Source: a virus
Reading direction: 5' to 3' (one strand)
Length of the DNA stretch: 51,484 bases
IMG/VR virus record: IMGVR_UViG_3300047409_000125
Location: 1-51,484 of that record
A model generated the notes under the pieces. That model was not told where the DNA came from, made no database searches, and saw only the letters and a list, made by a program, of their open reading frames with translations. Below, piece after piece: positions 1,323 through 29,711 of the stretch (position 1 is the first letter of the stretch; each line of letters begins with the position of its first letter). The translations under genes were made by a program, and so were the position numbers.

Positions 1323-1331
1323 CAGTCATTC

Positions 1332-2087: not shown

Positions 2088-2712
2088 GATTGTCTTCCAC
2101 CGTATAGAGGGGGTTAGTCGTCAAGAGAACCAGTTGTCCAGTGCTTGGTACGCCAACCGGTGTCACAGGCTCGCCCGGATTGGCAGTGACCGATAGCGGA
2201 ACAATATATTCGTCCATCAGCCCGACAGCCCACAATCTGGTGCCTGACAAATCTTTTGCATCCGGACCGCTATCCATCAATCCAACTGAACGAACATCAG
2301 ATACCGCAATAACCGGGGTACCGGTATTGCCCGGTCCCTCACCATTCTCAGGCCAGCCGGATACGAGTTTCGGACCCCAGATTTTAAGCTGCATGCCGTA
2401 ATTGTCGTAGCCAGCCCATTGCAGGAAAAAATCACCGGGTCTGCCAAGCGTATTGGCAGGCCCGCTTGGTCCAAACCACTTCATGGAATTTCTGTATTGC
2501 GACGGCACTACCCAGAGATAGTGGCCCCAATCGTCCCTGTCGTTGACCTCGCGTTTTTCAAACAGCTGATAAGTCAGGTTGTCGATATAGAGATCGCCAA
2601 GCACACCAGCTTTCGGGACCGGCGGTCCCCAGCCGCGCAGGATCGAACCATACTGCTTCGATATGTTATCGATGCCCCAGATATTCGAACGGGTGGTTGA
2701 AAACCCACTCAT
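2077..2712 (-). CDS. Tail-locus structural protein, unknown family
   Basis: 211 residues, soluble, rich in Gly, Trp and Pro, with no signal peptide or membrane segment. The composition (many aromatic residues, alternating hydrophobics) suits a beta-rich virion protein. It sits between the C1q-like gene and a 138-residue gene, overlapping the former by 11 bp and the latter by 4 bp (ATGA), so it is part of the minus-strand tail operon. No motif lets me assign a function. Confidence 0.65.
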   Translation of the reverse strand: MSGFSTTRSNIWGIDNISKQYGSILRGWGPPVPKAGVLGDLYIDNLTYQLFEKREVNDRDDWGHYLWVVPSQYRNSMKWFGPSGPANTLGRPGDFFLQWAGYDNYGMQLKIWGPKLVSGWPENGEGPGNTGTPVIAVSDVRSVGLMDSGPDAKDLSGTRLWAVGLMDEYIVPLSVTANPGEPVTPVGVPSTGQLVLLTTNPLYTVEDNHVV

Positions 2713-3125
2713 GCGTTCGCTCCCGTGTCAGCAGTCCTTGTGACTTGCAGCGCCATCGCAACACCGGTCCCGTCAGTGTTGTTGATGTTGAGAATACGCA
2801 GTCGAACAAATCCGGCGCGATGTATCCTCACGCCTGTCGCAACGACAACATTCTGCCACTGGTCAATCGGCCATGCTTCCGCATGCTTCTGACCGCCGAT
2901 TGATTTCAACTCCAGCAAGACTTGGACTTCCGGTGCAGTCACTTCCTTTGTCACCATCGATGACGCAGCTGACTGAAAATTAATAGACGCGCGAGCTACG
3001 TTGACCGCGCACCAGTCGCCCCGGTTACACGGCAGCCAACCGGTAGCGCCATCGATAGCGTCACAAAAAATTTCGTCATACTGGACGTTGATACGATCAC
3101 CAAAACCGCCCGGACGAAAAAACAT
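2709..3125 (-). CDS. Tail-locus structural protein, unknown family
   Basis: 138 residues; predicted all-beta by its alternating pattern (for example VNVARASINFQSAASSMV and AMALQVTRTA). It carries two Cys in the first 40 residues and no export signal. It overlaps the downstream gene by ATGA and starts one base before the end of the small basic protein gene upstream. Likely a minor virion or fibre-associated protein by position; function unknown. Confidence 0.6.
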   Translation of the reverse strand: MFFRPGGFGDRINVQYDEIFCDAIDGATGWLPCNRGDWCAVNVARASINFQSAASSMVTKEVTAPEVQVLLELKSIGGQKHAEAWPIDQWQNVVVATGVRIHRAGFVRLRILNINNTDGTGVAMALQVTRTADTGANA

Positions 3126-3368
3126 TTATTTCTTGCCCCGACTGAAAGCGTTCACGCCTTTACGGAATGTCGTACCGGCTTCACCAGTGCCGACTTTGGC
3201 CTTGGCCAGACGGCGGTTGCCGCTGGAAACATCCAGACTGGGATAGCGATCCAGCTTGCCCTTGGGGAAGCCAGCCGATTTGGGGCCGCACCATTTAGTG
3301 ACGTGCTTGCTCATGTCATCGCCAGCACTATTACCGAAGGCGTTGACGCTATTCTTGAATATCGTCAT
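3126..3368 (-). CDS. Small basic protein, unknown
   Basis: 80 residues, strongly basic (ending NAFSRGKK), with Gly/Lys/Ser bias. The start ATG at 3368 is preceded by AAAGGA about 11 nt upstream. It is the first gene after a 123-bp gap containing a large inverted repeat and leads a contiguous set of three genes. The basic charge could suit nucleic-acid binding or packing inside the virion, but nothing specific is recognisable. Confidence 0.55.
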   Translation of the reverse strand: MTIFKNSVNAFGNSAGDDMSKHVTKWCGPKSAGFPKGKLDRYPSLDVSSGNRRLAKAKVGTGEAGTTFRKGVNAFSRGKK

Positions 3369-3416
3369 TTCGATTTTTCCTTTATTTTGGCTGGCTTGGC
3401 GAACGCCAGTATAAAC

Positions 3417-3485
3417 GGCTGACCGGGACGGAACAAGCCGGAATGCTTGGCCAGAAGGTAAGTGTCTACACTGGGCCGGTCAGCC
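3417..3485. repeat. Inverted repeat in the gap between two tail genes
   Basis: A perfect 10-bp inverted repeat, GGCTGACCGG at 3417-3426 and CCGGTCAGCC at 3476-3485, encloses a 49-nt loop. It lies just downstream of a minus-strand stop and upstream of the 3368 start. No T-tract follows on the minus strand close to the arms, so it is not a classic terminator; it could be an mRNA processing or stability element. Confidence 0.4.
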
Positions 3486-3491
3486 AGACGA

Positions 3492-3629
3492 TTATCCCTT
3501 GCGGGTGACCGGGGCTTCGCCTTTTTTCCTTTGGGCATTGAAAATCCTCGCTGCTTTCTTCTTCGCAGGCTTGTCCTTTAAGCCTTCTTTCTTGAACTTG
3601 TCTCGCATCGCTTCATATTTTGCTGGCAT
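3492..3629 (-). CDS. Small lysine-rich phage protein
   Basis: 45 residues starting MPAKYEAMRDKF, very rich in Lys/Arg/Ala and predicted helical. The start at 3629 has GAGGA 8 nt upstream, within the end of the upstream gene (overlap 17 bp). The pattern of a MPAKYE start followed by KAARIFNAQRKK resembles a small protein I associate with many phages of alphaproteobacteria, with no known role. The strong basic charge suggests nucleic-acid contact. Confidence 0.6.
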   Translation of the reverse strand: MPAKYEAMRDKFKKEGLKDKPAKKKAARIFNAQRKKGEAPVTRKG

Positions 3630-3888
3630 TCCTGAAGTCCTCGTAGGTGAGTGGTGGTTCGCCTTCGAACGTTCGAAGGCGATTTTCGTGATCGAACAAA
3701 ACCAGTTGCTCCGATGTCGGCGGTGGCGGTGGCGGCAGTTCAGGCGGCACGTATGGATCAGGCACGCCGCCGTCCTCGACCCACTTAAGATATTCCACAT
3801 AGTCGCGGTTAGCGGGATCGCTGGGAATGCAGGCACCGTCTGCGGTGCGGATGATGCTGTCAGTGATGGTGAGTTGATAGTCTGCCAT
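3613..3888 (-). CDS. Small tail-locus protein with polyproline stretch
   Basis: 91 residues from ATG at 3888; a GTG nine codons upstream is possible but this ATG has GAGG 5 nt before it and overlaps the upstream stop as TGATG. The middle holds a run of six prolines (ELPPPPPPTSEQ) followed by an acidic/basic tail. Similar short Pro-rich proteins follow fibre genes in many phages and are sometimes fibre-assembly factors. That role is inference only. Confidence 0.6.
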   Translation of the reverse strand: MADYQLTITDSIIRTADGACIPSDPANRDYVEYLKWVEDGGVPDPYVPPELPPPPPPTSEQLVLFDHENRLRTFEGEPPLTYEDFRNASKI

Positions 3889-4919
3889 CAGAGCCTCGCA
3901 CTCAGGGCAAGCCACCCCGCACCAGTGTTTACCGCCATATAAAATCGCCCCGCCGTCAGCCCCGTGAAATTATCAAGATTGTAGGTGCCCGCGTCGCTGG
4001 TGTTGGACAAGGCAGCGATATGCGCGGCGCTTTGGTTATAATTTCCCAGATAGACATCGGTAATCCCGAAGCCACCAACCACTACGCCAGCTGTCGGAGC
4101 ACCACGCATGCCGGGATGCGACGCCCACATTGAAACCGCTGTTGTCGAATAGGCGATCCCGGTCAAAAACTTGGTTAGCTGCCAGTACCGTTTGCACGCC
4201 GCCAGTTCGCTGGCGTAATCCGGCACCATAAACGGCGGCGCTACGGTGCCTTCGGTGAGCGAAACACTGCCAAGCGTGCCCGTATTGAACTCGACGGACA
4301 TCACCGTTCCGTCTGTCTGTCCTGTTATCAGCAGAGGACTGGCTGCATAGGCACCTGCTGGCGTCAACGTATTTACTCCAGCGCGAGCCTGCGCGGTGCC
4401 GGTCCACGCCAATACGTAGCTCCCGCCACCTGTAACCCTGACATCCTCGATTGGCTGTATCAGGGTTTTACCCACCGCAATCGTTATCGTGGTGCTGCTT
4501 GCCGATTGCGTGAAGGAATAATCACCTCCAGCCGCACCCGCTTTCCATTGGTCGTGCCCATACGCAGCAGCGGCAAGCACAGCAGCGGAAACATAACCGC
4601 CTTGATTAATCTGAAACGCACCGTTGATGACGTAATTCTTCTTCGTCACGTCGATGTTGGCGCGGGCCTGCGAACGCTGCGCTGATGTCAGGCTCTGCGC
4701 GGTGTCGTAGCGCACCGCCTGCGCGGCGGCGTCGGAGGGGTGGATATGATCCTCGCGCGCATACTTGACCGACGTGCCGACTGCCGCCGTGCCGTCGATG
4801 ATCGGGGGCGCAGTCGCGGGGCTTGGTATGGGCGTGTTGCTGTTCCACTTTTCGCCATCCCAAATCCAGCCCTGAAAGACTTGGCCGACGGTTGGCGCGT
4901 TCGGGAAATCGAATGCCAT
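3888..4919 (-). CDS. Tail fibre / receptor-binding protein
   Basis: 343 residues. Residues 5-25 carry the module FPNAPTVGQVFQGWIWDGEKW, which recurs in the 98-residue protein at 7277-7573. A linker with KYAREDHIHPSDAAAQA (typical of phage fibre repeats) follows. Around residue 95 a domain starts with KNYVINGAFQINQGG and continues beta-rich to the end, the pattern of carbohydrate-binding fibre tips. It likely binds host surface glycan. Tail operon context on both sides; coupled to the downstream small protein. Confidence 0.72.
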   Translation of the reverse strand: MAFDFPNAPTVGQVFQGWIWDGEKWNSNTPIPSPATAPPIIDGTAAVGTSVKYAREDHIHPSDAAAQAVRYDTAQSLTSAQRSQARANIDVTKKNYVINGAFQINQGGYVSAAVLAAAAYGHDQWKAGAAGGDYSFTQSASSTTITIAVGKTLIQPIEDVRVTGGGSYVLAWTGTAQARAGVNTLTPAGAYAASPLLITGQTDGTVMSVEFNTGTLGSVSLTEGTVAPPFMVPDYASELAACKRYWQLTKFLTGIAYSTTAVSMWASHPGMRGAPTAGVVVGGFGITDVYLGNYNQSAAHIAALSNTSDAGTYNLDNFTGLTAGRFYMAVNTGAGWLALSARL

Positions 4920-4923
4920 GGTG

Positions 4924-7275
4924 CTAGCTCAATGTCACTTGAGGGTCGATGTAGAAAGTCGTGGACGGCTTCGCCGCTCTCACCCGCGCGTGGATGTATC
5001 CGGCAAGCCCCGGCTGTGGCGACGACAGCACGGCGGCGAGCTTGAACGGCGACCAGCTACTGGGCCAGCCCGATGTAAACCCGGACGGCACCGCACCGCT
5101 GAACGCGCTGCCGCCAAAATTGGCGGTCGCGACCTCGCCAGTATTGGAGGCCCAGAACGCTGGGAATTGCGTGCCGGTTATCGTGCTGATGCTGACGCCA
5201 CCCACGCCCGTAGCAGGATTGGCGGTGCCGCTGCCGTTCCAGTTGCCCGACGGAGCGACCCTGAACCAACAGAGGTTGTTGCCGACATCGAGCGCGATGC
5301 CAATGGTATCGCCTGCTGTGCGGGCACCGAGCGTCGAACCCGAAGCGACGTTGTTGACGATGATGGTACCGAGACGAGACATAAACGCAAAACCAAGGTT
5401 GCCGGAACTAAGAGCAGCGGACGCCAACCCGAATCCAACTGAGGTACTAGACTGAGCCCAAGTGCTGACCGTAACCTCCCAGTAGTACTTGCCGGACGCG
5501 AATCCTTCCTTGGCTCGTACCCCGGATGGTGCCGCAGTGTTGGTGGCAGTCAGGTTATTGTTACTCAAAATCATTGCGAGGAGATCAGAAGGGTTCCATG
5601 TCGTAAATGCAGGCATATTCCACGTCGAACCGTCCGACGCTACCGCCGCATTGGCCGCCAGCACGTTCGACTTGGTGGTGGTGACGATGGTGCCGAGCGG
5701 CGTTGCGCTCGATCCAAGATATTCAACTTCGAGCCAGATGTCGTCGTTGTTCGGCAGTGCGCCTGCATTCACCGTGCCGCACACCGTCACCGTGACGTTG
5801 GCACCCGTCACCGCATTCCAGATCGCGTAAGGCTCTGCCTTGAACGGTCGCAGCCATTGCGCGTTCGCCGTGGTAACGATCTTGCGGCTTTGCGCTTGCC
5901 CGGTAGGATCGGACGCGCCGCCGACGCGGGTAATTGAAGTTTCGGTTGTTTCAGTGCCTTCATAGACGTAGCGCGCGGACTTGTAGGATGTGGCGCCGCT
6001 GTCGGCGCGTATGTACTGGACTGTCTGACCGGTGCTCAACGGAGTCGCAAACGTCGCGGAAGCGTTGAGTTTACAGTCCTTGACGACCCAACTACCTTGC
6101 GAAACGTTTGGCATCCCAAAAACAGAAGTAACCTGACTGAGATCAAGCGCCTCAAGTATCACACTGCTCAAGTAGCCGGTGGCAGACTGATTGAATAAAT
6201 TCGTCGGCACCGTCGATCCACTCGCCAGTACCTGTCCAGTGTTGACCCAGGTAAAATTGGCTATGCCAACAAGAATATATTGCCCGGCATTAGCAAACCC
6301 GACTTGACAGTTGTTCCAGATAACGCCCCCCGGAACGGCCTGAAATAAAACTATACCAGACGTGGCATTGGTGGTGGCTAATTTAAAAATACAGTTGTCC
6401 AAGTAGTAGAAAGCATTTTGAGGACCGAGAATAACGCTTGCCGCACCTGATTGTCCGACTCCGGCGATGAATGTCAGCCCGTAAACATAAATTGTTCCAC
6501 CAATAGGATTGAAGCTGAGATTCACCACCCCGGTCGTCGATATTGTCGCAGTGGTTCTCAGATCAGACGACGTTGGTGGATAGCTGCCAGAATGATTATG
6601 GCAAATGATCCTGCCCATCGTCGCTTGGGTCAGCGCGGGCACAATGGTTATGGCCGTCGTCTGGCTCTCCGCGTGGTTGTCACCGACATAGATAGTGTTG
6701 CCCGCCACGAACCATGTGGCGGCGCAGGCACTGGCCAGCCGAGCATGCGGAGCCTGACCTCCGGTCCAGCTCCCGATAGGCCCCAACGACATCCAGACAA
6801 TGGTGCCACTTGCTTCTGTTGTAGTCGTCCCAAGCGTGTCGCTGAAAGCAGGCTCAGAGCCGCCCATCGGAGAGACCGATGCCGCCGTACATAACTGGAA
6901 ACTGACACCGTTGTTGCGCTTGATGATCTGGCCAGCACTGGCAGTGCTGGTTACAGCTTTATACTGCGCCCACGTTGGCGTGTTTGTGGCGTCACCGTTG
7001 AGCGCACATTGACCGGTTACTTCCTGCCATTTTGCCGTGCCGTCCGTGGTAACGGCACCGCGTCCCAGCGACCACGTAGCGTCCGTAGTGTTGGCCGTCG
7101 TTCCTGCCGTATTGCAGATGAATATCCGCTCGCTGCCAACCGCTGGCGCGGTGAACTGCCTGCACAACTGCCCCGCCACCACCGCCGCGTTCTGCGGACG
7201 CAACGGCACGGCGTAGTAGCCGGTGGTGCTCTGGTTGCCCGCGTTGCAGTACCAAACGGTGTCGAAGAAGGCCAT
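4924..7275 (-). CDS. Large tail protein with beta-solenoid-like middle and SPRY-like C-terminal domain
   Basis: 783 residues. The N-terminal 180 residues look like a virion-attachment part. The middle (about 190-470) has the repeating short-strand pattern of right-handed beta-solenoids (NNCQVGFAN, DNCIFKLA, VVKDCKLNAS), as in phage spikes. The C-terminal part from about residue 605 (EGFASGKYYWEVTV, SVGFGLA, NLCWFRVAPSGNWNG, FPAFWASNTGEVATANFG) reads like a B30.2/SPRY fold. Role by context: a receptor-binding or depolymerase-type tail spike; no catalytic residues could be named. Confidence 0.72.
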   Translation of the reverse strand: MAFFDTVWYCNAGNQSTTGYYAVPLRPQNAAVVAGQLCRQFTAPAVGSERIFICNTAGTTANTTDATWSLGRGAVTTDGTAKWQEVTGQCALNGDATNTPTWAQYKAVTSTASAGQIIKRNNGVSFQLCTAASVSPMGGSEPAFSDTLGTTTTEASGTIVWMSLGPIGSWTGGQAPHARLASACAATWFVAGNTIYVGDNHAESQTTAITIVPALTQATMGRIICHNHSGSYPPTSSDLRTTATISTTGVVNLSFNPIGGTIYVYGLTFIAGVGQSGAASVILGPQNAFYYLDNCIFKLATTNATSGIVLFQAVPGGVIWNNCQVGFANAGQYILVGIANFTWVNTGQVLASGSTVPTNLFNQSATGYLSSVILEALDLSQVTSVFGMPNVSQGSWVVKDCKLNASATFATPLSTGQTVQYIRADSGATSYKSARYVYEGTETTETSITRVGGASDPTGQAQSRKIVTTANAQWLRPFKAEPYAIWNAVTGANVTVTVCGTVNAGALPNNDDIWLEVEYLGSSATPLGTIVTTTKSNVLAANAAVASDGSTWNMPAFTTWNPSDLLAMILSNNNLTATNTAAPSGVRAKEGFASGKYYWEVTVSTWAQSSTSVGFGLASAALSSGNLGFAFMSRLGTIIVNNVASGSTLGARTAGDTIGIALDVGNNLCWFRVAPSGNWNGSGTANPATGVGGVSISTITGTQFPAFWASNTGEVATANFGGSAFSGAVPSGFTSGWPSSWSPFKLAAVLSSPQPGLAGYIHARVRAAKPSTTFYIDPQVTLS

Positions 7276-7276
7276 T

Positions 7277-7573
7277 TCAGAACAGCCCTCCCGCGATGAT
7301 CACCGTGGAAGGCGGACCTGTGGGTCCGACCGCGCCAATCAGAACCCATTGCGTCGAGTTGCCGTCGTTGACAAGGATGAAAAGTTTCCCGGTATCGCTT
7401 TCCCACCAAGTTGAACCTATGGGTGTTGTAGCAATGGATGGGGGTGTGTCGCTGATTAACGTTAAACCTCCAGCGGCAGCAGGCGCTACCAGAAGCCACT
7501 TCTCACCATCCCAAATGTAATTCTGATACACTTGGTTGAGAGTTGGAGAGTTGGGGAAGTCCAAGGCAGCCAT
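7277..7573 (-). CDS. Small fibre-module protein
   Basis: 98 residues composed of two modules found elsewhere in the locus: an N-terminal DFPNSPTLNQVYQNYIWDGE (compare 3888-4919) and a central IGSTWWESDTGKLFILVNDG followed by TQWV, which also occurs twice in the collagen-like protein next door. It looks like an anchoring and display module without an adhesin tip. Stop and start codons abut its neighbours, so it is in the same operon. Confidence 0.65.
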   Translation of the reverse strand: MAALDFPNSPTLNQVYQNYIWDGEKWLLVAPAAAGGLTLISDTPPSIATTPIGSTWWESDTGKLFILVNDGNSTQWVLIGAVGPTGPPSTVIIAGGLF

Positions 7574-8605
7574 TTAGATTTGCACCCACTGAGATGATGA
7601 TCCGTCATTGTAGCGAAAAAACAGCATGCCGCTGTCGTTCTCGTACCAGAAACTGCCATCAACCGGACTGGCAGGAGCCGTAGCAGATATGACCGCAGCC
7701 GGAAAAATTGTTGGCTTATTAGTGATGCCGTTCCAATCAGTCGTACCGGCAGGACCAGTTGCACCCGCAGGACCGGTAGCGCCGGTAGCACCCGCCGTAC
7801 CGGGAATACCTTGCGGACCTTGTGCGCCAGTCAACCCGGTTGGCCCCGTTGGCCCAGCCGGTCCTTGTGGACCGGCTGGGCCGGGCGTCAAAGCAACATT
7901 CGCGACCGCAGTAGTGACGAACGCTGTCGTTGCGATTGATGTGTCGTTGTCGCCAGCTGTCGGTGTTGGCGCAATTGGATTGCCAGTAAACACAGGTGAA
8001 GCCAGCGGTGCCAGATCAGTAATCTTTTTGCCGCCATCCTTGAGCAAACTGCCATTGGTGTTGGCGTAAGTCGCGATGTCATCGACAACTGACGTTGCTG
8101 GACCGTTGACATTGCCTGAACCAGAACCGCTTGCACCGGGCGGCCCTTGTAGCCCCGGCGGTCCTTGTGGACCGCTGCCAAAAGGTACCCATTGTGTGGA
8201 ATTACTGTCGTTATATTTAAAAAACGAAAGACCGCTGTCGCTTTCAAACCACAAGCTGCTATCTGGCGCACCGACAGGCGGTGTAGTCCCGACCAATACA
8301 GATATGCCGGGCGGTCCTTGCGGACCCGGTGGTCCACCTTCCGGGCCTATCGGACCCTGCGGTCCTACCGGTCCCGGTACTGTGCTGTCGGCACCCTTTG
8401 GTCCTGCCGGTCCAATCGGACCTTGCACGCCTTGCGGACCTTGCGGTCCTTGAACACCTTGAGGGCCTTGCGGACCCGGATCACCTTTCACTCCGATGTT
8501 GGCCAGCCCGTCAATAATCTCCACCATCTCACGGTCAAAATGAACATCGACAGCTTTTACTGTTGACGGGTCAAAATATACGTCGATGGAAGTGATCTGG
8601 TTCAT
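7574..8605 (-). CDS. Collagen-like tail fibre protein
   Basis: 343 residues. After a 40-residue N-terminus come Gly-X-Y collagen repeats (about 40-100, 145-160 and 240-290), interrupted by non-collagen segments. Two of those segments hold the [15 protein letters not shown] / [15 protein letters not shown] display motif followed by QWV. The region at about 180-235 has the [16 protein letters not shown] motif common in phage fibre proteins. Collagen triplets imply a trimeric, rod-shaped fibre. It overlaps the upstream gene by 4 bp. Confidence 0.8.
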
Positions 8606-9367: not shown

Positions 9368-10102
9368 TTACTCCGCGACGAACCCACCTGTACCACGGAA
9401 ATGCCGGGTCTTGTTGAAGGTGACCTTAGCAATGAAGCCCGCCGCAGTCGGATCGTTGCCAATTTCCTCGCCGCTCGACAGAACGCGCAGCGGCAGCGTG
9501 GCTGTGTTGGCAAAAGCCGGATCAAGCGAGACACCGGAGATGCCGAAGCGTGCCGATTGCTGACCGGCATTGGCCTTCACGTCCGCGCCGCTCATGAGGT
9601 TGAGATTGAACGCGGTGCCGGGCACCGTGGGCACGGTGGCGTACATCTCGACGTTGGGGTCCGTCTCGACCGTCAACCATGCCTCAGTGGACGCAGGGAC
9701 GTACTGGAAGCCGTTCTTGGCCATGTAGAGAGTAATGGGGCCGAAGCCGACGCAGACGCCTACGATGACGCTGGTGGCCGCCACGTCGCCGGGTACCCAG
9801 CGGGTGACGTTGCCTGCCATGGACTGGTTGCCAAGCCCGCTGCCGCCACCGCCACCGATGATAACCGATGCAGACGGGGCACTGATGTTGGCTGGGAGAT
9901 CGCCGCCACCTTGGATGCCGATAGCGGAACTGGATGACACGATGATGTCGCCCCGGAAGATTGCAGCCGCGTTGGCCGCTGGAACGTGGAAAATCCTGAC
10001 CGAAGCGTGGTGGGGGTCACCCCCGCCAAGGTTCATGGGCACTAGTCCCGAATAATGGCGGAAACCACCGCCAAGAACGGTTGCATTGACGATGTTAACC
10101 AT
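9368..10102 (-). CDS. Probable virion structural protein
   Basis: 244 residues from ATG at 10102, preceded by GAGGG 7 nt upstream. Gly/Ala/Val-rich, beta-type sequence with a glycine-rich loop (VIIGGGGGSG near residue 93), without export or membrane signals. It is the first gene of the leftward tail operon, directly behind the divergent promoter region at 10.1 kb, so it is probably made in quantity. No family recognised; a decoration or tail-tube role is possible. Confidence 0.6.
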   Translation of the reverse strand: MVNIVNATVLGGGFRHYSGLVPMNLGGGDPHHASVRIFHVPAANAAAIFRGDIIVSSSSAIGIQGGGDLPANISAPSASVIIGGGGGSGLGNQSMAGNVTRWVPGDVAATSVIVGVCVGFGPITLYMAKNGFQYVPASTEAWLTVETDPNVEMYATVPTVPGTAFNLNLMSGADVKANAGQQSARFGISGVSLDPAFANTATLPLRVLSSGEEIGNDPTAAGFIAKVTFNKTRHFRGTGGFVAE

Positions 10103-20066: not shown

Positions 20067-20177
20067 AAAATTCTACAAGGGGTGTAATTCTATAGCCTGT
20101 CCGGCCCCGGCCTTGGCTTAACCGGTACCTGAACACGGTTGCACCACCTCTGAGCGCAAACCCGGTACCTTGCTGGC

Positions 20178-20264
20178 ATCTGGTATACTGTATACCAGAT
20201 ACCAGATGCCACCGCCGTGGTATACAGTATACCAGATGCCAAGGCTGCTGGTATACTGTATACA
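20178..20264. repeat. Array of three GTATAC-N-GTATAC palindromes
   Basis: Three double boxes at 20182-20196, 20219-20233 and 20250-20264, each GGTATAC-N-GTATAC(C/A) with a central T or A. The first lies in a longer palindrome with arms ATCTGGTATAC at 20178-20188 and its mirror at 20190-20200; AGATGCC/GGCATCT words flank the copies. The 309-bp gap 20019-20327 holds no gene. Such arrays are typical of repressor, partition or initiator binding sites. Confidence 0.75.
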
Positions 20265-20327
20265 ACACACCACATGCCAGAGCCGCGAATGGACCGGATC
20301 GGGACTATCCCGATCCGGCCTTAATCG

Positions 20328-22014: not shown

Positions 22015-22206
22015 ATGGTCATCCAAACTTCTTGCGGTCACTTCTATTCGGTCATCGATACCTTCGACGCTAACCTGTCTCACGTCTGGTATGGTCTGCC
22101 GGTCAAGAAGGTAAAAGGCGTTTGGCTTCACAAGACTTCGAAAAAAGGCGTCAAGATCGAGCTGGTCCGAAAGGAGGCAACCCGATTGATCGAAGCCACG
22201 CCATAG
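22015..22206 (+). CDS. Small basic early protein, unknown
   Basis: 63 residues from ATG at 22015 with GGAGA 9 nt upstream; the longer frame upstream has no ribosome site. Basic, beta-like (VKKVKGVWLHKTSKKGVKIEL). First of the small-gene series at 22-26.3 kb. Confidence 0.6.
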   Translation: MVIQTSCGHFYSVIDTFDANLSHVWYGLPVKKVKGVWLHKTSKKGVKIELVRKEATRLIEATP

Positions 22207-22221
22207 CGCAATCAACATGGT

Positions 22222-22284
22222 CTTATGCCCGGCAGCTGAAAAGCTTACCGGGCATAAGGCATCAGGGAATGGTCCCTATGGAGG
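22222..22284 (+). ncRNA. Structured leader element, copy 1
   Basis: Hairpin 1: arms CTTATGCCCGG (22222-22232) and CCGGGCATAAG (22248-22258); inside, AGCT-GAAA-AGCT forms a 4-bp stem with a GNRA tetraloop. Hairpin 2: AGGGA-ATGG-TCCCT (22264-22277). Then GGAGG (22280-22284) and ATG at 22292. The inner stem has one extra base pair here compared with copies 2-5 while keeping the GAAA loop, which supports a folded RNA. Five copies exist. Confidence 0.75.
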
Positions 22285-22291
22285 TTTCAAG

Positions 22292-22570
22292 ATGCTTGAT
22301 CGCCACTATACTTTTTTCAGCGACATGGGCCATGGTTGGCTGCGCGTCACCATTGATGACTGCAAAGCTATTGGCCTGAGCAAATCCGACTTTAGCTGGT
22401 ACAGCTATGCCGATAAGGATTGGCTGTATCTTGAAGAGGATTGCGATGCTGCAAAGTTCATTGCGGCATACGTCAGAACGGTTGGCGAGATGCCGATTAT
22501 CCATGACGTTCACACCAATGGAAACAGCGTGATCCGATCCAAGGCACGCGTTGTGCAACGGAGGGCTTGA
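22292..22570 (+). CDS. Early protein behind leader copy 1, unknown
   Basis: 92 residues; ATG 22292 is set by GGAGG 7 nt upstream, after the structured leader. Acidic and aromatic-rich (SDFSWYSYADKDWLYLEEDCD), then a mixed region and a basic end. Looks like a compact soluble alpha/beta protein. Not recognised. Confidence 0.65.
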   Translation: MLDRHYTFFSDMGHGWLRVTIDDCKAIGLSKSDFSWYSYADKDWLYLEEDCDAAKFIAAYVRTVGEMPIIHDVHTNGNSVIRSKARVVQRRA

Positions 22571-22573
22571 ACC

Positions 22574-22780
22574 ATGGCAACTTGGCATCAACAGCGAAGC
22601 CCGGTCAGATTGTACAGCGCAACGCATTGGGTTGTTGTGATCGATCCACCAAACGAATGCCGCAACTGCTATCTGGCAAGCACGCAAGAGGCTGCGGAAC
22701 GCTACCTAGAAAATCTCGCACTCAATCAACCGCGATTGGCTAAACATTCCTACATTCTCAGACCGACAGGGAAAAAGTAA
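22574..22780 (+). CDS. Small early protein, unknown
   Basis: 68 residues, starting 3 nt after the upstream stop, with GGAGGG before it. Two Cys close together (NECRNCYLAS), then a helix. Part of the polycistronic small-gene run. Confidence 0.55.
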   Translation: MATWHQQRSPVRLYSATHWVVVIDPPNECRNCYLASTQEAAERYLENLALNQPRLAKHSYILRPTGKK

Positions 22781-22781
22781 G

Positions 22782-22973
22782 ATGCAAATTTCATCCGCCA
22801 CAAAAGAAGAACTTGGATTGCTCATCAGCGGATTGCGAGCGATCTATATTCACAGTCAGGAACCATTGCGCCGCAAGCTTGCGGCTCAACTCGAAACCGA
22901 ATTGACAACGCGGTTTGGCTTGCGAGTTGGTGGTGATGACAATCAAGAGAGGAATATGGCCGATGACCGATAA
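22782..22973 (+). CDS. Small helical early protein, unknown
   Basis: 63 residues, helical, with alternating acidic and basic segments; starts 1 nt after the upstream stop and overlaps the next gene by 11 bp. No motif recognised. Confidence 0.55.
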   Translation: MQISSATKEELGLLISGLRAIYIHSQEPLRRKLAAQLETELTTRFGLRVGGDDNQERNMADDR

Positions 22974-23229
22974 AATCACCTATGGCGCTGGTGGTACCAC
23001 ATTCACCGGTCCGTTAGGCGTTGACGTATTTCAGGCTGCTGCATTGCGGTCCGGTCTAGGCTTGATGGCAGTCGGCATCAAGCCGCACCGGTCTTGGACA
23101 AGCCTGAAATTGGCACTGGACAAGGCAACATCCTACACCGGGCAAAAATATTCCGGCAAAAAGGACATTGAGCGAGCGCGGGCTGACCTGCAAACATTCG
23201 TTCAGGAATTGAAAGCCCAACTCGATTAG
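22963..23229 (+). CDS. Small early protein, unknown
   Basis: 88 residues from ATG at 22963 (AGAGGA upstream; the longer frame start is inside the previous gene). N-terminal Gly/Thr-rich stretch, then basic helices (SWTSLKLALDKATSYTG, KKDIERARADLQTFVQEL). Might bind nucleic acid or protein; not assignable. Confidence 0.55.
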   Translation: MTDKITYGAGGTTFTGPLGVDVFQAAALRSGLGLMAVGIKPHRSWTSLKLALDKATSYTGQKYSGKKDIERARADLQTFVQELKAQLD

Positions 23230-23245
23230 CACAATCAAAATTGCG

Positions 23246-23306
23246 CTTATGCCCGGCAGCGAAAGCTTACCGGGCATGAGGCATTGGGAAATGGTTCCCG
23301 ATCAGG
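23246..23306 (+). ncRNA. Structured leader element, copy 2
   Basis: Hairpin 1 arms CTTATGCCCGG (23246-23256) and CCGGGCATGAG (23270-23280, one G-U pair), inner AGC-GAAA-GCT. Hairpin 2: GGGAA-ATGG-TTCCC (23286-23299), extended by two further pairs; the A-T pair gained at its inner end relative to other copies is compensatory. The ribosome site is weaker here (AGGATTGGA) and the ATG is at 23319. Confidence 0.7.
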
Positions 23307-23318
23307 ATTGGACGCATC

Positions 23319-23546
23319 ATGAATGGACGAGACGTTAGAAGCATGACGAAAACACCAGAACTGCAACGCAGGCACTTTTGTTTCATTGCCAAGGTGCTGG
23401 CCGAAAGCAAACCCGAACCGCATTGGGACGCAAACAAGCTTGCCCAATGGCAATCGGTCGTTAACTCATTCATCGCGGCATGCCGCCGATCCAATGGCCG
23501 ATTTGACGCTGACCGGTTCCTTGAGGCATGCAGCCATGGCCGATGA
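23319..23546 (+). CDS. Early protein behind leader copy 2, unknown
   Basis: 75 residues, helical. The pattern RRHFCFIAKVLAES is similar to small phage proteins I have seen in alphaproteobacterial and gammaproteobacterial phages, without known function. Ends in an overlap with the next microprotein. Confidence 0.6.
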   Translation: MNGRDVRSMTKTPELQRRHFCFIAKVLAESKPEPHWDANKLAQWQSVVNSFIAACRRSNGRFDADRFLEACSHGR

Positions 23547-23631
23547 TCCGGTCAGCGATTGGCTAGCATTGGCAACGCTGACCTTGTTCATTGCCTCAAT
23601 GGGCTTTGGCATTGCCTGCATTCTGAGTTGA
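23536..23631 (+). CDS. 31-residue membrane microprotein
   Basis: ATG at 23536, overlapping the upstream gene by 11 bp. Acidic N-terminus (MADDPVSDW) then one hydrophobic helix (LALATLTLFIASMGFGIACIL). A single-span membrane peptide, similar in design to the one at 19629-19724. It could modulate a host membrane protein; unknown. Confidence 0.5.
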   Translation: MADDPVSDWLALATLTLFIASMGFGIACILS

Positions 23632-23635
23632 CAGG

Positions 23636-23669
23636 TAAAGCCCGATAGTGATAACGCTATCGGGCTTTA
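23636..23669 (+). promoter_or_regulatory. Perfect 13-bp hairpin before the 309-residue gene
   Basis: Arms TAAAGCCCGATAG (23636-23648) and CTATCGGGCTTTA (23657-23669), loop TGATAACG. It lies 6 nt before GGAGG and 17 nt before ATG 23686. Without a T-tract it is more likely a leader hairpin than a terminator, and it occupies the place of the repeated leader. Confidence 0.55.
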
Positions 23670-23685
23670 ACCTTTGGAGGTCAAA

Positions 23686-24615
23686 ATGGCTGATTTGAAC
23701 GATTCCCTGTCTAACCTGTTCGACGGTGATACCGGTCCGGTTCGCGTTGAGCCGATCCGCACCAATGCCGTTGAATACAAGCCTGCAACCGCTCGATTTG
23801 AAGAGGGCTGCGACAAGTGCAAAGGTACTGGCAATTTTACCAGCTGGTCCGGTCGCGTTGTCGGACAATGCTTTGCCTGCAAGGGCGCGGGAAAAAAGGT
23901 TTTCAAAACTTCGCCAATGACGCGGGAACAAAATCGCGAGCGGTCCGCAGAACGTAAGGCTGCGAATGCCGGTCAAAGCATGGTCGATTTTGCTGCTGCA
24001 CATCCCGATGTGCACGAATGGCTCAAGGCTGAAACCGCCAAGGCTGCACCATTCGCGTTTGCGGTCAGCATGGTTGAAGCAATCTGCAAGTATGGCGACT
24101 TAACCGATAAGCAATTGGCGACCTGTTACCGATTGGCTGCCAAAGCCAAGGAACGTATCGCCCAACGCGCTACGGCGGTCACCAGTGCCCCTAGCGTTGA
24201 TGTAAGCGCCATTGAGACAGCCTTTGCAAACGCTCGCTCCAAGGCTGCCAGACCGGGCCAGATGGGTATCATGGTTAAGCCGCTCAAGCTTGCTGCCGGT
24301 CCGTCAAAGGAAGATATCGCTTTCAAGGTATCTCCCGGTTCAATCGGCAGCCAATGGGAAGGACAGGTTTTCTTCAAGTCAATCGATGGGGACCGTAAAC
24401 TTGGTTATGTGAAAGACGGTCGCTTTGTTCGGCAGTTCGCTTGCACAGATGCAGAAGCGCAAGCGGTAGTGACTGTTGCGAGCAATCCCAAGGAAGGCTT
24501 GATTGCCTATGCCAAGGCTTGGAGCAAGTGCGGCGTATGTGGCCGTGGTTTGCTCAATGACGAAAGCATCGAGCGCGGGATCGGTCCCATCTGTTTTGCA
24601 AAACTTGGGTTCTAG
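23686..24615 (+). CDS. Zinc-binding early protein with DnaJ-type knuckle and DUF6011-like end
   Basis: 309 residues; start at ATG 23686 (GGAGG 5 nt upstream). N-terminal CDKCKGTG...CFACKGAG (about residues 43-67) is a DnaJ-like zinc-binding CxxCxGxG pair. The C-terminus has CGVCGRGLLNDES with IGPICFAKLG, the pattern of a DUF6011-type zinc ribbon. The middle is helical with a positively charged strand region. Likely binds nucleic acid or protein; the largest gene of the small-gene region. Confidence 0.7.
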   Translation: MADLNDSLSNLFDGDTGPVRVEPIRTNAVEYKPATARFEEGCDKCKGTGNFTSWSGRVVGQCFACKGAGKKVFKTSPMTREQNRERSAERKAANAGQSMVDFAAAHPDVHEWLKAETAKAAPFAFAVSMVEAICKYGDLTDKQLATCYRLAAKAKERIAQRATAVTSAPSVDVSAIETAFANARSKAARPGQMGIMVKPLKLAAGPSKEDIAFKVSPGSIGSQWEGQVFFKSIDGDRKLGYVKDGRFVRQFACTDAEAQAVVTVASNPKEGLIAYAKAWSKCGVCGRGLLNDESIERGIGPICFAKLGF

Positions 24616-24631
24616 ATTTTCGACATTGGTT

Positions 24632-24689
24632 CAAGCCCGGCAGCGAAAGCTTACCGGGCTTGGGGCAATAGGGAATAGTCCCTTGGAGG
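24632..24689 (+). ncRNA. Structured leader element, copy 3
   Basis: Hairpin 1 arms CAAGCCCGG (24632-24640) and CCGGGCTTG (24654-24662), inner AGC-GAAA-GCT. Hairpin 2: AGGGA-ATAG-TCCCT (24670-24683). GGAGG follows at 24685-24689 and ATG at 24698. The outer stem differs from copies 1-2 by paired changes (TAT/ATA to CAA/TTG). Confidence 0.75.
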
Positions 24690-24697
24690 TTTGAACA

Positions 24698-24877
24698 ATG
24701 GCTGTCACGCGCAAAATTACTTTCGAATATCGTCCCAACGCTGGCATGGGAGCCAAGCCCTATCATTGCGTGAAAATCATCAACAGTACCGAATACAAGC
24801 CCGGTGAATGGTTTGACGCAGAGACCGTTGAAAACCTGTGCCGATCCAATCATTGGGACGTGACGATAACGACCTAG
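24698..24877 (+). CDS. 59-residue early protein behind leader copy 3
   Basis: Frame starting MAVTRKITFEYRPN and ending HWDVTITT, with the ATG 8 nt after GGAGG. Beta-rich, basic N-terminus. It lies in the gap between leader copies 3 and 4, one gene per leader. Not recognised. Confidence 0.6.
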   Translation: MAVTRKITFEYRPNAGMGAKPYHCVKIINSTEYKPGEWFDAETVENLCRSNHWDVTITT

Positions 24878-24894
24878 CCAAATCACATCGCGTT

Positions 24895-24952
24895 CAAGCC
24901 CGGCAGCGAAAGCTTACCGGGCTTGGAGCAATAGGGAATGGTCCCTTGGAGG
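24895..24952 (+). ncRNA. Structured leader element, copy 4
   Basis: Hairpin 1 arms CAAGCCCGG (24895-24903) and CCGGGCTTG (24917-24925), inner AGC-GAAA-GCT. Hairpin 2: AGGGA-ATGG-TCCCT (24933-24946). GGAGG at 24948-24952, ATG at 24961. Shares the flank TCACATCGCGTT with copy 5. Confidence 0.75.
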
Positions 24953-24960
24953 TTAAAGCA

Positions 24961-25209
24961 ATGCCAAAGAAAACTTACTTTCGCGGAACGTTGACGCTGG
25001 TCATCGATGACAGCAACAGCGACACCCCCGCAATGGTCTATGCCCGGCGAGAAAAATTCGCATCAACGTATGACTGCGCCACTAGCGAAGGAATGGTTGA
25101 TGACGAACATCAACTATCAGAGGCTGATCTTGAATGGTTGGAAAGTCACCGTGACAAGGTGGAACGTGCTTTCGAAATTGCCCGAAAGGACCATCCCGAA
25201 TATTCCTGA
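24961..25209 (+). CDS. Acidic early protein behind leader copy 4
   Basis: 82 residues, acidic overall. Residues 1-35 look beta-rich, then an acidic helical half (DDEHQLSEADLEWLESHRDK). Small acidic early proteins are often host-protein inhibitors or DNA mimics, which is speculation here. Confidence 0.6.
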   Translation: MPKKTYFRGTLTLVIDDSNSDTPAMVYARREKFASTYDCATSEGMVDDEHQLSEADLEWLESHRDKVERAFEIARKDHPEYS

Positions 25210-25226
25210 TCCAGTCACATCGCGTT

Positions 25227-25270
25227 CAAGCCCGGCAGCGAAAGCTTACCGGGCTTGGGGCAATAGGAGG
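25227..25270 (+). ncRNA. Structured leader element, copy 5 (second hairpin lost)
   Basis: Hairpin 1 as in copies 3-4 (arms 25227-25235 and 25249-25257, inner AGC-GAAA-GCT). The second hairpin is missing: CAATAGG runs straight into AGGAGG (25265-25270). This is a natural deletion variant that separates the two hairpins. Confidence 0.7.
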
Positions 25271-25278
25271 AAATGCAA

Positions 25279-25485
25279 ATGAGCATCGAAAGCAAGCTTT
25301 GGAAAGTGGTTTCCTATGGGATGCAGATTGCAGTGCTGCAAAAAGCATCTGGGATGCAGCGTTTCGTAACAATCGGAAAATTTCCGAATAGCGAAGCACT
25401 GGCAGCAATGAGCGAGCGACAATTTGACCGGTTATGCCGTGAAACGTTTCATGACGAACCAAAACAGCGAAAGGGAATATGCTAA
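25279..25485 (+). CDS. Early protein behind leader copy 5
   Basis: 68 residues. ATG 25279 is 8 nt from AGGAGG; an ATG at 25273 is too close. Basic, with FVTIGKFPNSEALAAMSERQFDRLCRETF in the second half, predicted alpha/beta. Ends in TAATG overlap with the next gene. Confidence 0.55.
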   Translation: MSIESKLWKVVSYGMQIAVLQKASGMQRFVTIGKFPNSEALAAMSERQFDRLCRETFHDEPKQRKGIC

Positions 25486-26307: not shown

Positions 26308-26336
26308 AAAGCCCGGCATTGCTGCCGGGCTTTTTT
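26308..26336 (+). terminator. Rho-independent terminator after the small-gene run
   Basis: Arms AAAGCCCGGCA (26308-26318) and TGCCGGGCTTT (26323-26333) with a 4-nt loop, then T6 (26331-26336). A clean bidirectionally symmetric stem with T-tract on the plus strand. Its CCGGC core resembles hairpin 1 of the leaders. Confidence 0.85.
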
Positions 26337-26708: not shown

Positions 26709-26731
26709 CGAGTGCGGCGCAGCATGATGCT

Positions 26732-26784
26732 GGTATACAGTATACTGTATACCACCAGCGGTGGCATCTGGTATACAGTATACA
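26732..26784. repeat. GTATAC array next to the origin candidate
   Basis: A triple GTATAC run (GGTATAC-A-GTATAC-T-GTATACC, 26732-26753) followed by GGTATAC-A-GTATACA (26770-26784). The word TGGCATCTGGTATAC preceding the latter is identical to that in the array at 20.2 kb. Confidence 0.75.
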
Positions 26785-26842
26785 AAATGCCAGCCGGGTG
26801 CGCGGCGGATCGCCCCGCGCCGCCGGGCCGGGAGTGGAGCGG

Positions 26843-27002
26843 AAAAAGCATGCTTTTTTATACAGGCGAAAAAAGCATGCTTTTTTCCTGCCCCATGGGC
26901 CAATAGCCGGGCGAGAAAAAGCATGCTTTTTATACAGGCGAAAAAAGCATGCTTTTTTGATTGCGCTATCGCTATTGGCGTGCAATAAAAAGCATGCTTT
27001 TT
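26843..27002. repeat. Five AAAAAGCATGCTTTTT palindromes, candidate replication origin
   Basis: Perfect 16- to 18-bp palindromes centred on GCATGC at 26843-26859, 26869-26886, 26916-26931, 26941-26958 and 26987-27002. The first four form two near-identical direct repeats of about 43 bp, joined by ATACAGGCG. Further copies occur inside genes at 27319-27332 and 27688-27704. AT-rich palindromic iterons just upstream of the primase-helicase, next to GTATAC boxes, are typical of origins. The 310-bp gap 26709-27018 has no gene. Confidence 0.7.
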
Positions 27003-27018
27003 ACTCAGGGAGGTTCCA

Positions 27019-27440: not shown

Positions 27441-29711
27441 ATGACACGGACAGAACTCGTCAGGCTGGCGCGCGACCTGTACACAACGCACGGCCTGATG
27501 CCTGTTCCGGTCGCTGGCAAGGTTCCGCTTGGTGGCATGGGCTGGAACCAGCTGCCGATTGATGCACGCCTTGCCATCGCAGCCAGCGAAAGCTGCACCG
27601 GCATCGGCATGCAGATGGGATTGATCTTTCATCCCGTGCTGGGACCGAAGGAAGCGAGAACAATAGACTGCGATATAGACGACCGGCAAAAAAGCATGCT
27701 TTTTGCTGGTACCCTGAACAACTACTTCCACCCTACGCATTGGCGTTGGGGCAGGCGACCGGCCACGCTGGTGTTCACTGATCCCGGTGTCATCAAGCGT
27801 GAGAAGTTTGGTGACGTGCAGTTGCTGGGCAGCGGCAAGCAGGTTGTCTACTGGGGCGACTACCTGAACAAGTTGCCATTGCTGACTGACCCCCGCGAAT
27901 ACTGGATGGAAGGCACATCAATCTTTGATCTGATGCCGCCAGTGGTGCCCGCAGGCGTGCTGCAATCGGCACTGGAAGCCGGGGTAACCGCCGCTGGTTA
28001 TACAACGCAGTCAAGGCAAATTGAAGCCGCTCCGCTCAGTGCGGATGATCTGGCGATGCTGAACGGCGATATCCTCAATCAGTTCCGTTCCGACATGCAA
28101 AGCATGCTGGACGACATAGACCGGTCGCCAACAGGCTCTGGCCGGGGCACCAAGCTGCACCGGCTGGGCATCAAGTACGGTGCGCTGATCAAGGCCAGCG
28201 GCAACGCACCGGCACTGGTGGACGCGGCACGCATCTCACCGGACTTCGTGGACTACGCGCCCATCAGCAACCCGGTGCTGGCCGAAATAGGACAGATGGC
28301 TGAAGATGCCTTTGCGCTGCTGCCGGGTTCGTTGGGTCAGGGTGACAGACGTGATTTCGCACGCGGTGTAGGCGCATCGATGGGGCTGGCGCAAGGCGTG
28401 GAGGTTCGCAAGGCGAAGACCCCTTTATTACTGCCCACTGGGCGCGACCACCCCGGTCAGACCGTCCATGACCTGATGCTGGAAAATCTTCCACCGTTGA
28501 AATTTCTGGTGGACAGGTACCTGACCGACAGCGGTTGCGTCATCCTCGCAGGTAAGCCAAAGATAGGCAAAGGGTGGATTGTTCTTGAACTGGGGATGTG
28601 CATCGCTGAAGGAAGCCAGTTCTGGGACCGGCAATGTACCCAAGGCGAAGTCCTGATGTACATGCTTGAGGACAACAAGCGCCGGGTGAGAGAGCGCATC
28701 CGCATCCTGCGGCCAGCTGGTTTCAATCCTTCATCCAAGATGCGCTTCCGCTATTCGGCAGACGGTCCCTTCTTCATCGATAGCGACGGTACCGGCACGT
28801 TGCTGGATGACATGCGCAAGCACATGACCGACTTTCCAGCCATCCGGTTCATCGTGGTTGACGTGCTGCAACGGGTTCGCGGCAAGGTCGAGCGTTCGGA
28901 CAACGCCTATCAGATCGACTACAAGGTGATTGGTGCGCTACAGAAATTCGCAGCCGGGTTCAGCGTGATGATTTTGGTTGTGCATCACGTCAAAAAGGGT
29001 AGAGTGGATGACGCTATCGATAGCGTTAACGGTTCATTTGGCGTGGCTGGTGCGGCTGACGGCGCTATCATTATCGGCAGGGAAGGCGGCATAGTACGGA
29101 TCGAAAGCAGGATGCGCGACATTCCCGATTTCGAATTTGATCTGATAAAGGAAAATGGAAGCCCAATGTGGAAGCCTGCACAAACCGTGGAAGAACTGCT
29201 TGGACCGACTGAAGGTACCAAGACGCAAGCCGTGATGCTGGCGCTGCACGCCGCTGCATGCTGCCTGACAGCTGGCGATCTTGGCGTTCGAACCGGTATC
29301 AGCGAAAAGAATGCTGCGACCTATCTGGTCCGCTTGATGAAGACCAATCAGGTATCGCGACCGTCGCGCGGCTGGTACATGGCTGTCGGACTGCCATATC
29401 GCGAACGGATCAAGGGGGTTATTGACGTACTGAAACGAATGCCCAAGACCGTGGCAACCGCCGACATCAAGGCCAAGTACGGACCCAACGTCGCACCACT
29501 TGAAGCTACCTACATGATCCTGACCCCTGTGGCGATCAAGGAAATCGAGGCTGGCTTCGTTGACGGCAAGGACTGCCTGAACAGCCTGAAGTTTCGTGGT
29601 CTGGCCGTATTTAATAGCGACACCACTTGGCTGATTGGCGATGACTGGGAACCAGCACAGCCGGTCATGAAAGAAAACCCGTTTGCTCAACAGAGGATGC
29701 CTTGGCAATGA
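27441..29711 (+). CDS. Bifunctional primase-helicase (primpol-like + RepA-like AAA ATPase)
   Basis: 756 residues. The N-terminal region has the prim-pol opening (LARDLYTTHGLMPVPVAGK, then GW) and an acidic DCDIDD motif near residue 76. The C-terminal half is a RecA-fold helicase: Walker A GKPKIGKG (about 370), FIVVDVLQ as Walker B (about 475), LVVHHVKKG, then a winged-helix-like tail. It should unwind and prime the phage genome. No separate initiator gene is visible, so it may also recognise the nearby palindromes. One palindrome lies in the coding sequence near residue 84. Confidence 0.85.
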   Translation: MTRTELVRLARDLYTTHGLMPVPVAGKVPLGGMGWNQLPIDARLAIAASESCTGIGMQMGLIFHPVLGPKEARTIDCDIDDRQKSMLFAGTLNNYFHPTHWRWGRRPATLVFTDPGVIKREKFGDVQLLGSGKQVVYWGDYLNKLPLLTDPREYWMEGTSIFDLMPPVVPAGVLQSALEAGVTAAGYTTQSRQIEAAPLSADDLAMLNGDILNQFRSDMQSMLDDIDRSPTGSGRGTKLHRLGIKYGALIKASGNAPALVDAARISPDFVDYAPISNPVLAEIGQMAEDAFALLPGSLGQGDRRDFARGVGASMGLAQGVEVRKAKTPLLLPTGRDHPGQTVHDLMLENLPPLKFLVDRYLTDSGCVILAGKPKIGKGWIVLELGMCIAEGSQFWDRQCTQGEVLMYMLEDNKRRVRERIRILRPAGFNPSSKMRFRYSADGPFFIDSDGTGTLLDDMRKHMTDFPAIRFIVVDVLQRVRGKVERSDNAYQIDYKVIGALQKFAAGFSVMILVVHHVKKGRVDDAIDSVNGSFGVAGAADGAIIIGREGGIVRIESRMRDIPDFEFDLIKENGSPMWKPAQTVEELLGPTEGTKTQAVMLALHAAACCLTAGDLGVRTGISEKNAATYLVRLMKTNQVSRPSRGWYMAVGLPYRERIKGVIDVLKRMPKTVATADIKAKYGPNVAPLEATYMILTPVAIKEIEAGFVDGKDCLNSLKFRGLAVFNSDTTWLIGDDWEPAQPVMKENPFAQQRMPWQ

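Follow-up and report, generated by a model that had tools for sequence, protein, structure and literature searches.

An RNA hairpin module spaced from the upstream stop codon, between small genes of phages of Bradyrhizobium and its relatives

The virus record IMGVR_UViG_3300047409_000125 of IMG/VR, analysed here over its whole length of 51,484 bases (positions 1-51,484, hereafter the window), carries five copies of an RNA hairpin module at 22.2-25.3 kb, all on the + strand and each between two small genes. Our results establish this module as a covarying structured RNA whose pairing is strongly supported. It is an intercistronic element and not a free 5' leader, because its spacing is tight to the upstream stop codon and loose to the downstream start. 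Further copies lie before unrelated genes in other phages, and comparison of related phages shows that the module works as a gene-cassette joint, small genes being gained or swapped as units of module plus gene.

Fold and spacing of the module

The module is about 70-115 nucleotides (nt) long and fills the gap between two co-directional genes. The upstream stop codon is followed by 12-14 nt with a loosely conserved CAACAUCG block, by hairpin 1 and by a linker ending in RNYAG; the 3' part consists of an optional hairpin 2, starting 0-3 nt after the YAG, then the ribosome site and the start codon. Hairpin 1 is built of an outer stem of up to 13 base pairs (bp), a 1x2 internal loop (C/UA), an inner stem of 3-4 bp and a stable tetraloop. 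Searched with a covariance model (R1, see below), the window gives the five copies at 58.7-69.5 bits (E 1e-20 or better) and no sixth one, the next-best match scoring 14 bits. The core CCGGCAGCGAAAGCTTACCGG has four exact occurrences (chance expectation 0.00), copy 1 having a 4-bp inner stem instead, and all five full leaders are more stable than their own dinucleotide shuffles (folding z -2.9 to -4.8). A sequence-only reading of this DNA had reported five leaders, and they are indeed found at the places that it named, on the + strand and with the pairs that it gave; the compensatory stem changes are present in the window copies, and copy 5 does lack hairpin 2, its UAGGAGG doubling as linker end and ribosome site. 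Three details had to be corrected: the outer stem, put at 9-11 bp, is real and reaches 13 bp by including the linker GGC; hairpin 2, described as GGGA/TCCC or GGGAA/TTCCC, is present and has 5 bp (AGGGA/TCCCT); and the left edge of the conserved module lies farther upstream, right behind the preceding stop codon (Table 1).

The pairing was examined in 38 usable copies, which came from pattern scans of viral contigs and bacterial genomes and form the base of R1. Their alignment was made by sequence only and hence was not fitted to the fold. In this alignment 92.4% of cells pair, 10 of the 14 pairs vary on both sides, and there are 67 doubly changed cells against 15.2 in shuffles. The extended set gives a similar picture (90.7% of cells pairing and 105 compensatory changes on both sides, where shuffles give 25.7), with a covariation score of 0.44 that drops to 0.13 or less when the partner is slid by one base; the Bradyrhizobium-genus set alone yields 41 double changes against 14 when shuffled. 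Covariation in more sequences is thus above chance, as the earlier reading had anticipated, and both computational tests set against it came out in its favour. Since the scan patterns fixed some letters (parts of CCGG, the inner-stem GC/GC and one T), conservation at these letters arises partly by selection, while the other variation and the copies found by the model are free of this bias.

The sequence of hairpin 1 changes extensively around a few constant positions. The G-C core pairs flip among copies (CCCGG/CCGGG, CCGGG/CCCGG, CCCCG/CGGGG), the inner stems vary freely and the loops interchange (GAAA, GCAA, UUCG, CUUG and others); the loop is a generic cap. The outer stem is lengthened by GCC of the 5' block, which pairs with the linker GGC and covaries with it, as L009 and L012 illustrate (GGT...GCC). 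The internal loop is near-constant, with C in 53, U in 47 and A in 48 of 54 copies, and so is the YAG at the linker end (A in 53 and G in all of the 54). The lower stem commonly has a pyrimidine-pyrimidine mismatch (39 of 56 copies in one set and 27 of 27 in another), but the window copies are paired there. On the sense strand, the 83 copies hold 53 G-U against 22 A-C mismatches, counts that ignore the relatedness of copies; such an excess is expected where the folded molecule is RNA of the sense strand. Hairpin 2 stands directly after the YAG in most copies and is variable in sequence (summed energy z about -7 over 83 copies); it is missing from a minority that includes window copy 5, while hairpin 1 is present in all. 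Folding predicts no masking of the Shine-Dalgarno sequence in the window copies. A pairing between the 5' block and hairpin 2, which might have formed a switch, was seen by eye in some copies and not in others, and was rejected, the GCC of the block pairing with the linker GGC instead.

The position of the stop codon was assessed by counting stop triplets by their distance from the stem; the stop lies outside the model, so it was not selected for. In the first set, 51 of 56 copies have a stop triplet starting at -18 to -23 from the stem (23 copies at -19 and 17 at -20), against about one per position farther upstream, and nearly all of these anchored stops close open frames of at least 60 codons. 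The second set agrees, with 22 of 27 stop triplets at -18 to -21. In the window, the stop codon and the base of the long stem are 12-14 nt apart. A ribosome on a stop codon should cover about 10-12 nt past the stop, so that hairpin 1 would start just outside the terminating ribosome. The distance from linker to start codon is loose, mostly 11-46 nt, and varies several-fold with the optional hairpin 2. No copy was found at the head of an operon without a preceding gene, though a few copies have no assignable upstream frame. The description of these elements as leaders of the downstream gene is therefore not supported in that form, tight spacing being to the upstream stop and start distance varying several-fold.

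Table 1. Module copies and adjoining genes in the window. Natural left edges (22207, 23230, 24616, 24878 and 25210) lie directly after the upstream stop codon; aa, amino acids; ORF, open reading frame.
Feature	Positions	Strand	Basis
Stop codon TAG of the gene upstream of copy 1 (ORF 22015-22206)	22204-22206	+	sequence; stop anchoring
Copy 1, complete module, stop to start codon	22207-22291	+	R1 69.5 bits, E 2e-25
Copy 1 hairpin 1: 13-bp outer stem, C/UA internal loop, AGCU-GAAA-AGCU inner stem	22220-22260	+	
Copy 1 hairpin 2 (AGGGA-AUGG-UCCCU)	22264-22277	+	
Gene downstream of copy 1, 92 aa, function unknown	22292-22570	+	
Copy 2, complete module	23230-23318	+	R1 61.3 bits
Copy 2 hairpin 1	23243-23282	+	
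Copy 2 hairpin 2 (core GGGAA/UUCCC)	23283-23302	+	
Gene downstream of copy 2, 75 aa, phrog_34049 (unknown function)	23319-23546	+	
Copy 3, complete module	24616-24697	+	R1 65.2 bits
Copy 3 hairpin 1; AUUG/CAAU pairing lengthens it to 24625-24669	24630-24664	+	
Copy 3 hairpin 2	24670-24683	+	
Gene downstream of copy 3, 59 aa, no family	24698-24877	+	
Copy 4, complete module	24878-24960	+	R1 58.7 bits
Copy 4 hairpin 1	24890-24929	+	
Copy 4 hairpin 2	24933-24946	+	
Gene downstream of copy 4, 82 aa, no family	24961-25209	+	
Copy 5, complete module, without hairpin 2	25210-25278	+	R1 64.4 bits; sequence
Copy 5 hairpin 1	25222-25261	+	
Gene downstream of copy 5, 68 aa, no family	25279-25485	+	

Besides the five copies, the window holds at 23639-23668 a different hairpin (GCCCGATAG...CTATCGGGC) which, like the module, lies between a stop and a ribosome site. 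It is without the C/UA loop or the YAG, scores 9.6 bits with R1 and possibly replaces the module there.

Occurrence of the module and exchange of its genes

Searches with R1 yielded 83 distinct copies after removal of duplicates, in about 45 phage contigs and prophages, which bears out the earlier idea of a portable module. In the genus of Bradyrhizobium sp. MOS002, 18 of 266 genomes gave matches (E 1e-6), and in its family 6 of 297 carry copies judged real by inspection; the family search had 18 genomes passing E 1e-4, and those beyond the six are likely chance matches, several of them within one conserved coding sequence. At E 1e-7, nothing matched among 384 other genomes of the class or 248 further ones of the phylum. 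Similarly, 39 whole-genome pattern matches were mostly GC-rich chance, and those of Bradyrhizobium alone stood up. MOS002 itself has four successive copies about 400 nt apart, and its array (L119) also shows decayed or truncated copies at about 9820 and at 10006-10036, beside the four fuller ones. Copies are slightly more alike within one record than between records (75% against 69%). Two remote R1 matches in the L022 record (1894-1946 and 7307-7359; 24.6 and 18 bits) have another hairpin together with the tail TTGAGGCACYAG and may represent a sister family.

The module is carried by phages of different kinds. One related group takes in many of the contigs, but proteins of this group are few or absent in the window, MOS002, L045 and others. 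Among the ORFs of 50 aa or more in these fragmentary contigs, no single protein cluster occurs in every carrier. Neither the region nor the consensus found a related element among cultured phages at the sensitivity of BLAST. The Rfam check proposed by the sequence-only reading returned no family for the copies (Rfam 15, at the gathering score for the window and in a permissive search of the region), and the open-access literature searched holds no description of the module.

The genes on both sides are small and unrelated, the 83 copies being flanked by 59 upstream and 65 downstream protein clusters. In the window, the genes behind the five copies fall into five clusters and are indeed unlike each other, as previously stated; none has a Pfam, NCBIfam or PADLOC family, and the single PHROG is of unknown function. 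A homolog of the gene downstream of window copy 1 (44% identical) lies behind a module in the Bradyrhizobium-genus genome L147. Moreover, the window gene at 22574-22780, which adjoins no module, has a 58% identical homolog directly before a module in L019.

Pairs of related phages differ by whole units of module plus gene, so that the module works as a cassette joint. In L007 and L017, the upstream genes are 97% and the downstream genes 91% identical, L017 having an extra 66-aa gene and module; the one module of L007 can be aligned to either of the two in L017, with an offset of 296 bp. Likewise, L012 and L015 differ by an extra unit of 298 bp, made of a different 66-aa gene and a module, and a gene is replaced at the next module. 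The proposal that these elements serve as a homology anchor for gene-cassette exchange is thus directly supported by the gain or loss of genes from module to module between related phages.

Some other features of the flanking genes and of the early region were recorded. CxxCxGxG zinc-finger-like proteins are encoded directly upstream of a module in four phages (the window at 23686-24615, L007, L017 and L023); the window protein has a DUF6011 domain and matches Anti-TRAP below threshold. In the Bradyrhizobium genomes L119, L151, L152 and L157, several genes after a module have signal-peptide-like N-termini, as in secreted proteins. Related TATAC palindromes (TGGTATACTGTATACCA type) flank the early region of the window in opposite orientation (20174-20272 and 26729-26794) and are possible operators or replication sites. 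A repeated perfect palindrome, AAAAAGCATGCTTTTT, stands in several copies before and inside a primase-like gene (26843-27003 and 27687-27704).

Possible role of the module

The data fix the level at which the module operates, as a sense-strand RNA that lies at the boundary of two cistrons and takes its spacing from the upstream stop. Within this frame, the explanation that we favour, to which we would give somewhat less than an even chance, is that of a cistron-boundary RNA which folds beyond the terminating ribosome and may set the stability and translation of the next gene. Whatever the level of translation of the upstream gene, hairpin 1 would keep its fold, and it might block ribosome run-on or 3' exonucleases. 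A host factor (a ribosome, an RNA-binding protein or an RNase) could bind at the conserved C/UA loop and YAG foot, and the next gene would start at its own ribosome site and owe its separate stability to hairpin 2. Recombination would add, lose or exchange genes between modules, and these genes would still be expressed because each module brings the boundary function plus homology. A host reader is preferred because the carrier phages have no common protein; this absence favours a host reader, or none.

Several points weigh against this explanation. Fragmentary contigs and the exclusion of ORFs of less than 50 aa might hide a phage factor common to the carriers; a pure insulator needs neither a conserved internal loop nor a conserved linker, so that a specific reader has to be assumed; a minority of copies lacks hairpin 2; the G-U and A-C counts are uncorrected for relatedness; and the fixed stop spacing could come partly from genome compaction against the conserved 5' block.

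Unlikely, and yet the best placed of the alternatives, is an action on RNA polymerase, in which the nascent fold would bind the polymerase in untranslated gaps and prevent Rho-dependent or intrinsic termination, as in put-like antitermination or anti-polarity. In favour of this, the module sits in the longest untranslated gaps, clear of ribosomes, and no phage-encoded partner would be needed; the two hairpins also recall put. Nevertheless, the module is not seen at the operon start, and several repeats in 3 kb would be superfluous for a processive antiterminator. The window operon has no strong internal intrinsic terminator, its clear terminator lying at its end (26310-26334, by eye), and R1 has no match in HK022 24-34 kb.

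We also consider improbable, and rank next, a site of mRNA processing as between T7 early genes. An endonuclease would cut in or beside the linker, after which hairpin 1 would protect the upstream message at its 3' end and hairpin 2 would cap the downstream one at its 5' end. The placement of hairpin 1, 12-14 nt past the stop like a 3'-end hairpin, and the start of the sequence-variable hairpin 2 at 0-3 nt past the invariant YAG are in line with such a cut, whereas hairpin 1 is on the short side for RNase III, the linker is not rich in A and U, hairpin 2 is not always there and R1 finds no match in T7 500-8000.

It is more doubtful still that the module is an operator for a phage or host repressor controlling translation of the downstream gene, that is, a translation switch. 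The asymmetric internal loop and the YAG foot do resemble a protein site, a ribosome site comes directly after, and zinc-finger-like proteins are encoded just upstream of the module in four phages; against this, the tight spacing is to the stop and not to the start, a conserved fold masking the Shine-Dalgarno sequence is lacking, and no protein is common to all carriers. Finally, a joint acting as DNA only, whether a recombination site like integron attC or plain homology, is very improbable: it would account for units gained and lost exactly from module to module and for hairpins of variable sequence, typical of attC, but not for the G-U bias towards the sense strand, the fixed orientation relative to the genes, the retained stop spacing and ribosome site, and the lack of jointly present attC boxes in all 83 copies.

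Returning to the cistron-boundary RNA, this explanation bears on how a new gene gets expressed at once in phage early regions, where many small genes are freely swapped. The module offers a concrete and testable answer in one host group, the joint itself being a structured RNA with a fixed placement after the stop. More broadly, and with a confidence slightly lower than that given to the boundary role, it might represent a general RNA gene-cassette joint of Bradyrhizobium-family phages: one host-read, stop-positioned module through which otherwise unrelated phages both express and exchange small accessory genes drawn from an open-ended pool. The covariance model also provides a means to gather the genes flanked by modules, which are likely accessory or host-directed. 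Should a host factor be the reader, a post-transcriptional mechanism of Bradyrhizobium and relatives would have gone unrecognised.

Comparison with known systems

A number of known elements were considered and set aside. A lambda-type nut site (boxA/boxB) does not fit, the GNRA-like loop not being kept and UUCG, CUUG and others taking its place; the likeness of the 5' block to boxA concerns single copies only (TGCTCTTA in L016), and that of GGCGGTAG to ops/RfaH a few copies only, neither being conserved. No copy was returned by the terminator scan, the stem being followed by AAGGC/TTGGGGC without a U tract. As to repetitive extragenic palindromic (REP) elements, these have a 5' GTAG/GGAG foot and stand in either orientation, whereas all module copies follow the gene direction and carry the conserved YAG at the 3' foot. 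Pakpunavirus hairpins (PAK_P2, Adele) have, in most cases, a 23-nt stretch 96% identical to the hairpin core, which we judged a chance likeness; the two examined lie between converging genes, as for a two-way terminator.

Other systems share part of the organisation of the module. HK022 put is a phage-encoded two-hairpin RNA acting in cis; of the module, all copies have hairpin 1 and most, not all, have hairpin 2. Put stands at the start of two operons, while the module is intercistronic and repeated. T7 early RNase III sites and the Rhodobacter puf hairpins are intercistronic hairpins that set separate message ends and stability; the module differs in moving between phages, and T7, in the stretch searched (500-8000), shows no similarity to it in sequence or by the model. 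As in integron cassettes, promoterless small genes alternate with a structure-conserved hairpin after each stop, and cassettes are gained and lost; unlike attC, the module has no attC boxes (RYYYAAC and GTTRRRY occur together in 0 of 83 copies), folds on the sense strand, includes the ribosome site and is not known to depend on an integrase, no search aimed at IntI having been made in these fragmentary contigs.

The nearest described elements are the start-associated sequences (SAS) and extended SAS (ESAS) of Cluster K mycobacteriophages (PMC3203893) and Cluster EF Microbacterium phages (PMC7302621), which occur in many copies per phage at the translation starts of a subset of non-structural genes. 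They consist of a 13-bp motif on the ribosome site and of 17-bp inverted repeats, for which the authors report little support as mRNA hairpins (PMC3203893; PMC7302621). Like them, the module is repeated at the starts of unrelated non-structural gene families with unusually long intergenic gaps, and part of the SAS copies have an upstream inverted repeat. The SAS motif GGGATAGGAGCCC has no match in the window at up to 2 mismatches, and R1, with filters off, none in mycobacteriophage TM4 27-52 kb. The module belongs to another host group; what it conserves is the hairpin, which covaries strongly and is spaced to the upstream stop. Thus, what is new compared with known phage gene-boundary repeats is the covarying RNA fold, its anchoring to the stop codon and the visible exchange of cassettes.

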